64,000 nt of DNA from Bugula neritina (lineage: Eukaryota; Bryozoa; Gymnolaemata; Cheilostomatida; Bugulidae): the NCBI GenBank assembly GCA_964035545.1, contig OZ037765.1, positions 33,541,004-33,605,003 on the forward strand, written 5' to 3'. A program made the translations under genes and the position numbers. Within the stretch, counting starts at the first letter, position 1. Every line of letters begins with the position of its first letter. Positions 26,301 to 43,843 of this stretch are shown one piece after another. A model generated the notes under the pieces. That model did no database searches and had not been told where the DNA came from. It saw nothing but the letters and a program-made list of their open reading frames with translations.

Positions 26301-28905
26301 TCAGATCTCAGACTGAGGAGAGATCTTGTATTTGGGAAACAGTAAAACCTTTCTCATGTTAGTGAGAGTGCTGAATACCATTGGCGTCTGCTTCTCAACA
26401 TTTCTCTCTGTCCCAGCAAGCTTCCTTGTCACTTTTCTGACTCTGTCTTGTACCTGCAATGTGATATCTCTCAGACTAAAGCTATGAGTCACTGCAGAGC
26501 ATTTCAGAGCAAGTTGGAAAATATTATTTGTTTAGATATTGTTCTGTTTTATTGAGATACAAAGAGTGTAGTTTGCTGTAGCAATCATTTGTATTACGGC
26601 TGTATAGATGAGCTGTGTGTACTTTTATGGAAAGATGATGACTTGGACAATAAGAGAGTATAAAACACTCACCAGGTAAAACAGAGTAGCAAGATCTGTG
26701 TGAGAAGAGTGTTTGTACAGAGTTTTGACCAGCTCTCTGATGAATGGAGTCCCGTAGTTTGTGTGGCGTATGGAGCTTCTACCTAAATTCACAACACATG
26801 GTATATATGAAACATATCTGAACAAAGCTGGGAGTAGCTGAAATAGGAGAGAATACTTCATTATATTATTTCTATAGAACTAAAGTTTTGTTATTTTTAT
26901 ATCTTGAGTTTCAACATGATTGGCAGTAAATGTAAGTTCCACCAGCTAATCGCGCAAGTCAGAGAAAACAGAGAGACACTAGGAGCACTGAAGATGAACT
27001 CAGGGAATAAAATATGAAAAATAGGCTGCAAAAGAATTGCAAAAAAAAATTAGCTTTCTTAATTTATAACCACAGAAAAAAAACTGACTAATCAATATAG
27101 CTAAAATGACTAAAATACACTTAAGCCTATCATTTTAACATCAAGTTTTTAAATTTCATAAAAACATTAAAAAGCAGAGTGAGAAAAATGCTCACCAAAC
27201 AGATACATTAAGGCAGCAACTTACCATCAAAGCAAGATTGAAGTATCAACAAATCGTCAACATCCAGGTTTCTTGGTCTACTTTCAGTTTGATGACTTGT
27301 TTCAACTTCCTGTTGACCTGAGCTGTCTCTGGTCTCAGTAACTACCCTCTCCATTATGTCATCTGTTTCAACTATAGCAGGTACCAATTTACAAATAAGA
27401 TAACTAGTATTGTGATAGATTCTCATCCTCTACTGTTCTCAAGTAACTGCGTGTGTCAGTATTATAATTACTGTTGCGTATATTTTGAATGCTGTAATTG
27501 TAGCTAAGTTGCACTAGCTTTCTAATGTCTTATTATTGCGATTAAGCTTTCAGTATAATGTAATTTTCATTAAATACGCATTTCCAGAGTTATTTTCCCT
27601 TTTTGCTATTTCATCGTTTTTGCATTAATACTGATACTGGAAATTTGTGTAGCTTTTATGAATTCCTTCAATAGGTTGTTATTATAGCTAAATTCTTGGC
27701 CTATTGAATTATTCATTCTCCTTTGTCTATTTTTCTTTTGTTACTGTCAAGCTTAACTTTCTTTTGTCTGTTGGAACATTCTAGATGTGAATTCTTGTGT
27801 ATAAAAGCAGGCGAGTTTCCAGTGTAGATTCAGACTACTACTGGAGCTTGCTGGTAGTAGGACCACATAAGCTGTATCTGATACAATAAAGGTTATCCTC
27901 ATTTGTACTCAAATACTTGGCTTATTCTTTCTAGAGCATGTAGGCACTAGTTGCATTCAGAACCCACAAGTTTACTACAGTATTATACAGTTGTGCTTTT
28001 CGAGAGATCAAAGATATTAAAGTTACTTCTTGTCCATTGTCCAATGTTAGATAGACGTAGTCTGCAACCTAGTGACCCCCAAACTTAAGTTTAAGAGTTC
28101 ATTTATAAACAGTATAAATTACAGGCTACAAAATACTATAAGTGCTACAACTTAACAATGTAAGACATATTTTTAAAATTCAAAAGCATCTATTCAAAAA
28201 CTAACAAAAATTTATTTAGATTCAGTAATATTTCAGATTTAGTATTCCAAAAGTCAAAGAGATGCTCTGTTGAAAGAAGGCTTTACCGTGTATGAGAAAA
28301 ATGCTGAAAATCTCTGTCCTCTCTCAGTTACAATGAGTTAAAGAGTAAAACACACAACAGATTCAAAAGAGCTTGTGAAACAGAGACAGGCAAACAATCT
28401 ACTCACCACTCCTACAAGCTACCACAATCACCACTTTAGGTTTTCCGGCCATGTGCTTGAAATTGTCGGCAGACAACAGATCAAAGATTTCTGTGAGCTT
28501 GACCGGTTTCCCATCAGTTCCGTAGAGAACTCCGTGAGCACCAAATGTTCCACCATGAGACATGAGTACAGTGACATGCATACCATAGTCTTCATTGTCA
28601 GGTTGTTGAGTTTCTTGTTTGATATCTTTCAGCATTTGCTGTGAACAACACATAATATTTCATATAATATAATTCTATTCATATATGATCTGTGAATTTC
28701 AAGAAATAAAATAATAAAGATTTTTAGTCACCTCAGCGGTTCTGTCATGTCTCACATCTACTTCAAAGTCCAGAAGTGCCAAAATTGTCCGAATATTAGA
28801 CACATCTTTCAGGGAGCCCTTTCTATGAAGCTGAGAGGATTCAGAGAAAGTGTTGTTGTTGATAATCAGAGCTCTCCCTCTTACAGTCTCACTCATTCTG
28901 TACAC
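26301..28905 (-). CDS. Caspase domain exons of the Roco-caspase gene
   Basis: Five exons encode a full caspase fold. The start [20 protein letters not shown] matches caspase beta-1. [10 protein letters not shown] supplies the p20 arginine expected to bind substrate Asp. The catalytic His lies in MSHGG (codon 28555-28557). The catalytic Cys lies in VVACRS (codon 28414-28416), where most caspases have QACRG. Directly after comes VETDD, a caspase-type inter-subunit cleavage motif. The p10 part has the second S1-pocket arginine in [15 protein letters not shown] and ends [19 protein letters not shown], the usual C-terminal strand. His, Cys and both arginines are present, so activity is plausible. 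The exon starting at 28905 has a weak polypyrimidine tract; it was chosen because only it matches phase. Confidence 0.9.

Positions 28906-43843: not shown

Follow-up and report, generated by a model that had tools for sequence, protein, structure and literature searches.

Among the proteins closest to the one described here are MFHAS1/MASL1 and the kinases LRRK1 and LRRK2, in which leucine-rich repeats (LRRs) are likewise followed by a Roc-COR GTPase module. The LRRKs end in a kinase-WD40 region, and MASL1 is not known to have an enzyme after COR. On the minus strand of a 64,000-nucleotide stretch of the genome of the bryozoan Bugula neritina (C1:33541004-33605003; hereafter the window, with positions counted from its first nucleotide), we find a gene model in which the same LRR-Roc-COR order continues into a caspase, a feature not known from the LRRKs or MASL1. 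The caspase is of the canonical p20/p10 type known from CARD and DED caspases and the apoptosome, with LRR-Roc-COR standing in cis in the place of their prodomain. The terms caspase and protease occur nowhere in the main text of a review of Roco proteins (PMC6337361).

Parts of this layout are found in other receptors. Coral NOD-like receptors (NLRs) with a caspase in the chain were reportedly described by Hamada in 2013. The NLRs of the sponge Dysidea avara resemble the B. neritina protein in uniting death-type domains with an LRR sensor and an NTPase switch in a single chain, and a figure legend names CASc and COR among their domains (PMC12909245); their switch is a NACHT ATPase rather than a Roc-COR GTPase, and the text accompanying the legend leaves CASc and COR unassigned to a chain. 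The brown-algal LRR-ROCO proteins, which are candidate immune receptors, have equal-length phase-2 LRR exons upstream of Roc-COR (72 nt, compared with 138 nt in B. neritina) and resemble the B. neritina genes in exon duplication or shuffling and in forming an expanded family; unlike the B. neritina chain, they contain no protease in the architecture as set out for these receptors (PMC11378527). Among lophotrochozoans, Aplysia has Roco-TIR and Roco-MyD88 proteins, in which Roc-COR is joined in a single chain to immune signaling domains, namely TIR or a death-like domain, and the account of these proteins reports no caspase with them (PMC9334734). A counterpart with a similar overall order is homolog P0107, from a probably prokaryotic metagenome contig, a 1121-residue chain in which LRR, Roc, and COR-A are joined to CHAT, a caspase-like protease (GHA...NAC motif, by eye); since this is CHAT and not a metazoan caspase, P0107 is a distant analog. 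A related match, P0087, joins Roc-COR to TIR, and the papers found on CHAT and Roco showed no LRR-Roc-COR-CHAT protein like P0107.

Gene model, fold, and active site in the window

The preliminary description of this stretch, made from its letters alone, proposed sixteen exons running with consistent phases and no stop from the LRRs through Roc, COR, and a linker into a caspase. Joining the sixteen minus-strand exons between 43843 and 26301 in phase bears this out: the chain is 4171 nt long, or 1390 codons including the final stop, and has no internal stop. It begins with eight LRR exons of 138 nt each (39363..43843; 43843-43706, 43220-43083, 42594-42457, 42053-41916, 41325-41188, 40706-40569, 40091-39954, and 39500-39363), all of phase 2-2 and each encoding two 23-residue repeats. 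A 6.6 kb intron containing retroelement-like and satellite sequence (39362-32795) separates them from the 2030-nt Roc-COR exon (30765..32794; acceptor phase 2, donor phase 1), which holds the last LRRs, Roc, COR-A, a very likely COR-B, and a Cys/His knuckle. There follow linker exon 1 (30524..30601; 78 nt, phase 1-1) and acidic linker exon 2 (30092..30234; 143 nt, acceptor phase 1, donor phase 0), with the motif SDLSDxE...IKQLFYSN. The caspase is encoded by a first p20 exon with the first S1-pocket Arg in RKGS (28732..28905; 174 nt, phase 0-0), a second p20 exon with the catalytic His (SHG) and Cys (ACR) (28407..28638), an exon for the intersubunit linker and first p10 strand (27225..27371), a p10 exon with the second S1-pocket Arg (26673..26782), and a final exon (26301..26453) whose stop codon lies at 26301. 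The first caspase exon was set to start at 28905, which fits and has a conserved acceptor, because starts at 28918 and 28897 both break the phase.

In Pfam scans of the joined chain, LRR_8 (E 1.2e-48) and Peptidase_C14 (E 9.7e-41, profile positions 1-229 of 233) matched strongly. The Roc match (E 5.9e-5, 23.7 bits) lies under its cut-off of 27 bits and the COR-A match (E 5.4e-8, 33.3 bits) under its cut-off of 35.3, which the exon frame alone passes at 35.5 bits. Roc, with the P-loop GQTMSGKTS, precedes COR-A, the order that identifies a Roco protein. Single caspase exons gave E-values of 8e-8 (first p20 exon), 6e-14 (second p20 exon), and only 0.15 (p10 exon). None of the death-fold prodomains CARD, DED, and Pyrin matched the joined 16-exon chain, a scan that did not include the start exon, at an E-value of 1 or less, and neither did NACHT or NB-ARC, which would mark an NLR. 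No kinase matched after COR, where an LRRK would have one and where the linker and caspase stand. Two weak matches within the LRRs, Death_EDAR (8e-5, below cut-off, 18 residues) and EAD8 (0.005, below cut-off), were read as repeat artefacts.

An AlphaFold2 model of the Roc-COR exon, a check proposed in the preliminary description and built here from 24 sequences, has a mean predicted local distance difference test score of 82.6 and a predicted template modeling score of 0.82. Foldseek matched it to LRRK1 (8e05, 3.6e-23), to the Chlorobium CtRoco LRR-Roc-COR structure (6hlu, 9e-21), and to CtRoco COR (3dpt, 2.9e-9); across nearly its whole length the model matches LRRK1 and LRRK2 as well as the LRR-Roc-COR crystal structure from Chlorobium, with query template modeling scores (TM-scores) of 0.5-0.6, so that the fold is similar to that of LRRK1/2. 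The Pfam COR-B model had no match in the exon, the joined chain, or the genome; because the fold matches, including Chlorobium COR, cover nearly the whole exon, COR-B is very likely present according to the model, and the Pfam profile seems too narrow for the B. neritina copies. Positions of the Cys/His knuckle near the end of COR are at least 90% conserved in an alignment of 24 sequences that includes two amphioxus Roco proteins.

The caspase part aligns over query residues 2-252 with caspase-3 (4qud), with the catalytic His and Cys of p20 and both S1 arginines, the second in the p10 exon, in register. Its best matches in the PDB are an ancestral effector caspase 3/6/7, caspase-2, and caspase-3. 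Together with the full-length Pfam match, inside which the p10 exon lies, this alignment confirms a full caspase domain with His, Cys, and both arginines.

The eight LRR exons of the window are mutually 85-96% identical and their flanking introns 83-85% on average, indicating that exon and intron were multiplied together. Variation is concentrated on the predicted concave face: 7/8 concave-face positions vary compared with 8/37 others (Fisher p = 0.0009, for copies that are not independent and for a position set derived from the LxxLxLxxN motif but settled once the varying positions were already known). When the set of concave-face codons is slightly altered, the proportion of nonsynonymous differences (pN) is ten-fold that of other positions, and synonymous change (pS) is raised about as much (pN/pS 1.37 compared with 1.23). 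Because of this equal rise, we claim a concentration of variation and not positive selection. The long array is known from the window copy, the other copies having been read several hundred bases upstream; the other Roc-COR exons examined start with LRR-like sequence.

Roc-COR and caspase exons across the genome

The window gene is not a single occurrence. A scan of the B. neritina genome with the Pfam Roc profile, in which the best 150 of 338 candidates were scored, yielded at least 39 matches in open frames of at least 460 codons. For 31 of these 39 exons a listed caspase match lies on the same strand, 2.4 to 7.2 kb downstream, and among the matches listed no caspase was found within 8 kb upstream or on the opposite strand of any of the 39; when the exons were placed at random locally, on average 1.6 of the 39, and never more than 6, had such a downstream match. 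A COR-A scan found at least 23 places, 21 of them in long frames (the other two frames, of 143 and 82 codons, were omitted), and all 21 have a downstream caspase. The two scans together define at least 58 long Roc-COR exons, 50 of which have a same-strand caspase match within 8 kb. As the caspase scan listed the best 150 of 176 matches, we checked the eight remaining exons individually. Seven have caspase exons downstream (locus L052 shows just the first of these, where the stretch ends), and in the eighth, L050, the end of Roc and the linker are in the stretch and a same-strand caspase match lies 8.5 kb from Roc. A downstream same-strand caspase exon was thus found for 58/58 long Roc-COR exons from the two scans, and among the matches listed none of the 58 has a caspase within 8 kb on its upstream side or on the opposite strand. 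Three loci outside this set, L012, L015, and L034, have Roc ends ahead of a caspase and bring the total to at least 61 loci. The window gene is one of these, and a few of the loci are visibly broken. The 50 loci with nearby matches are spread over contigs C1, C3, C5, C6, and C7. Sixty of the 150 listed caspase matches are linked to a listed Roc-COR exon; the remainder may include ordinary caspases.

Catalytic residues are well kept in these paralogs. In a first set of caspase exons, which includes the window locus (L011) and caspases seen without Roc (L009 for R-x-G, L014 and L023 for His), the catalytic His is present in 28/28, the Cys in all 27 exons that reach its position, and the first S1 Arg (R-x-G) in 27/27. 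Further copies have His in 6/6, Cys in the 4/4 that reach it, and the second S1 Arg in 5/5. Not every S1 arginine is kept, which counts against the single-chain proposal set out below: in the first set the second S1 Arg is present in 17 of the 19 exons that reach its position and is replaced by Ser in L032 and by Lys in L033, and the first S1 Arg is present in 6 of 7 further copies, being absent in L046. A possible self-cleavage motif of DLSD type in the acidic linker did not appear by eye to be universal among paralogs, and we do not claim it.

Most of the strongest genome matches to the Roc profile are on small contigs and have in-frame TAA or TAG and few TGA codons. One of them (L001, 1501-1845) is open under the ciliate code and Rab-like by eye, and a ciliate epibiont may be represented among the unplaced contigs.

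The junction between Roc-COR and caspase

In the different copies, the Roc-COR exon and the first caspase exon are 0.8 to about 7 kb apart, and the splice sites that bridge this distance have nearly uniform phases. The Roc-COR exon ends in a GT donor of phase 1 at the same residue in 9/9 copies including the window and in 8/8 further copies (17/17). The donor of the acidic linker is in phase 0 in 12/13 and 7/7 copies (19/20, the exception being L041), and the caspase acceptor is in phase 0 in 22/22 exons (including the window locus; L009 and L032 omitted) and 10/10 further exons (32/32). Of the 15 paralogous loci searched, four have a recognizable linker exon 1 (L013, L016, L025, and L043) and the other 11 do not; this exon is also present in the draft gene models P0079, P0082, and P0083. 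Being of phase 1-1, it leaves the frame unaffected whether present or not.

The ratio of nonsynonymous to synonymous substitution rates (dN/dS) is below 1 in every module compared, ranging from 0.14 to 0.41 (point estimates, without a significance test; caspase exon 3 omitted). Between the window gene and L039/L013 it is 0.31 for Roc-COR and 0.33 for linker 2 pooled with caspase exons 1, 2, and 4; against L016, linker 2 pooled with caspase exons 1, 2, 4, and 5 gives 0.28. The acidic linker by itself gives 0.41 and 0.21 against two paralogs. As it is conserved, has dN/dS below 1, and starts in phase 1, it needs an upstream coding exon.

Draft gene models of B. neritina, produced separately with AUGUSTUS and transcriptome hints (PMC7576161), join the modules in several combinations. 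P0004, the highest-scoring named protein match and 85% identical to L043 over 690 positions, joins Roc, COR-A, and caspase p20; P0082 joins COR-B, both linkers, and the start of the caspase; P0075 joins COR, linker 2, and, by eye, part of the exon with the catalytic His; P0079 and P0083 join COR to the linkers. That LRR, Roc-COR, and caspase are parts of one gene, as the preliminary description had it, is well supported by the splice phases, the conservation of the linker, the selection on the modules, the adjacency across the genome, and these models from a separate assembly. These sequence features point to one transcript for the whole chain and give no support to a separate caspase gene with its own start. 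The symmetric 174-nt caspase exon could be skipped in some transcripts, as in P0004.

Among sets of 62 and 87 homologs, Peptidase_C14 occurs only in P0004 and P0082, both from B. neritina. The absence elsewhere is weak evidence, because the searches need shared five-residue words and are insensitive: query residues 690-1067 returned only P0002 and missed P0004. Two Watersipora models, P0070 and P0073, are LRR-Roc-COR proteins without a caspase. The tail of P0070, TNKTEIKDLFHNTD, resembles the end of the linker directly before the caspase, and it is therefore possible that a caspase exon downstream of P0070 was missed. P0004 already has a database entry, in which it is named as a caspase p20 protein. 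No description of a Roco-caspase was found among the matches listed from the open-access literature, which does not cover subscription papers and preprints outside PubMed Central. To our knowledge, the chain would be the first case of a protease built into a Roco protein of an animal, and it would belong to a large family.

The exon model starts with the LRR exon at 43843, and the start exon lies outside the sixteen joined exons. A candidate N-terminal coding exon (46340..46498, minus strand) has a weak donor and a frame similar to the beginning of draft model P0076, with about 44 of 53 residues alike when counted by eye; it has no Pfam match and no counterpart in the other loci, most of which are too short upstream. 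Elsewhere in the window, exons with an RPEL repeat and a SAP domain (15901-17514 and onward, plus strand) presumably belong to a myocardin-related transcription factor gene, and a 237-codon open frame without a Pfam match (21705-22418, minus strand) resembles an ATP synthase c-subunit lysine methyltransferase. LTR (long terminal repeat)-retroelement-like frames at 59652-62875 (minus strand) match zinc knuckle, aspartic protease, and integrase zinc-binding domains. Broken fragments resembling the reverse transcriptase of long interspersed nuclear elements were seen by eye at 47729-49665 (plus strand) and, inside the LRR/Roc-COR intron, at 33300-34643 (minus strand); the two reverse-transcriptase-like frames scanned had no Pfam match.

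Proposed mechanism, alternatives, and meaning

Initiator caspases are activated by dimerization, and in the B. neritina chain a caspase has been placed after COR; the simplest model is therefore a ligand-gated, GTPase-timed proximity switch. The diversified LRR array would recognize a ligand, probably microbial and possibly a non-self or damage signal. The Roc-COR module would then switch and dimerize, bringing two C-terminal caspase domains together and activating them by induced proximity, and the active caspase would cleave after Asp and lead to cell death or inflammatory signaling. Roc-COR would in this way replace the CARD or DED prodomain and adaptor platform of ordinary initiator caspases. 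GTP hydrolysis and dimerization are predicted by analogy with other Roco proteins, which dimerize via COR in a nucleotide-dependent cycle (PMC6337361); work on Chlorobium Roco points to a nucleotide-driven monomer-dimer cycle. Proteolysis after Asp is predicted from the caspase residues. We put at roughly two in three the probability that the window gene is a single gene encoding a cytoplasmic receptor-protease of an expanded immune or cell-death family, with sensing by the LRRs, a Roc-COR dimer switch, and a caspase activated by induced proximity. Such a protein may offer an alternative to NLRs or the apoptosome. More tentatively, bryozoans might have dozens of one-chain 'apoptosomes', in each of which an LRR array varying through exon duplication and a GTPase dimer switch are combined with a caspase exchangeable between family members, so that sensor and executioner could evolve as interchangeable modules.

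A number of observations weigh against this proposal, and they bear on one or another of three alternatives. The most probable of the three is that the single-chain Roco-caspase has a different main job, such as colony allorecognition, the degeneration of zooids during the colony cycle, or developmental proteolysis that is not lethal. Bryozoans are colonial, and large variable families also serve self/non-self recognition. The size of the family, the concave-face variation of the LRRs, and the general pattern of LRR, switch, and effector would rather favor defense, and we think this alternative unlikely.

Less probable still is that the family is largely decaying and that the window copy is a pseudogene or a protease-inactive decoy. 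In the window copy the acceptor at 28905 is weak, its pyrimidine tract being poor, and the long intron upstream of the Roc-COR exon holds retroelement-like debris. Among the paralogs, L021 has a stop codon within p10. Locus L041 has lost the frame of its linker exon (3268-3447) and looks broken, as a pseudogene or through an assembly error. Against decay of the window copy stand its 1390 codons open over 16 exons, the full caspase profile match with catalytic positions kept, and dN/dS well below 1 in all modules compared.

The observations that bear on the junction itself are of several kinds. The draft gene models are predictions from the same species, none of which spans the full chain, and neither a cDNA nor a read crosses the Roc-COR/caspase junction here. 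P0004 omits the first caspase exon and stops before p10, P0075 omits the first caspase exon too, and P0082 stops after that exon and adds residues ahead of it. An AG in the phase-1 position precedes the acidic linker exon in 13/13 copies, which is weak evidence alone because several other AGs lie nearby. Roc-COR and caspase identities across seven loci are only partially congruent (Mantel r 0.64, exact p 0.004). At L044/L021 (C1:34.24 Mb), Roc-COR is 63-66% like that of three C5/C6 loci, and for the caspase the figure is just 40-46%; the mismatch could stem from an exchange of modules or from uneven rates. Two neighboring genes, LRR-Roc-COR and caspase, duplicated together and acting as a receptor-protease pair, would account for a junction that no transcript spans here, the kilobases between the modules, the Watersipora models that end ahead of any caspase, and the L044/L021 mismatch, but the nearly uniform phases at all three splice sites, the conserved phase-1 linker, and draft models that join the modules make this very improbable.

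If the single-chain receptor-protease is real, the coupling of Roco GTPase cycling and dimerization to an output would become testable, with the caspase as a simple readout. The same holds for the question of how recognition can lead to cell death in the absence of death-fold adaptors. The parallel with the brown-algal LRR-ROCO receptors and with the metagenomic LRR-Roc-COR-CHAT chain suggests that Roco-based defense receptors may have been invented repeatedly.

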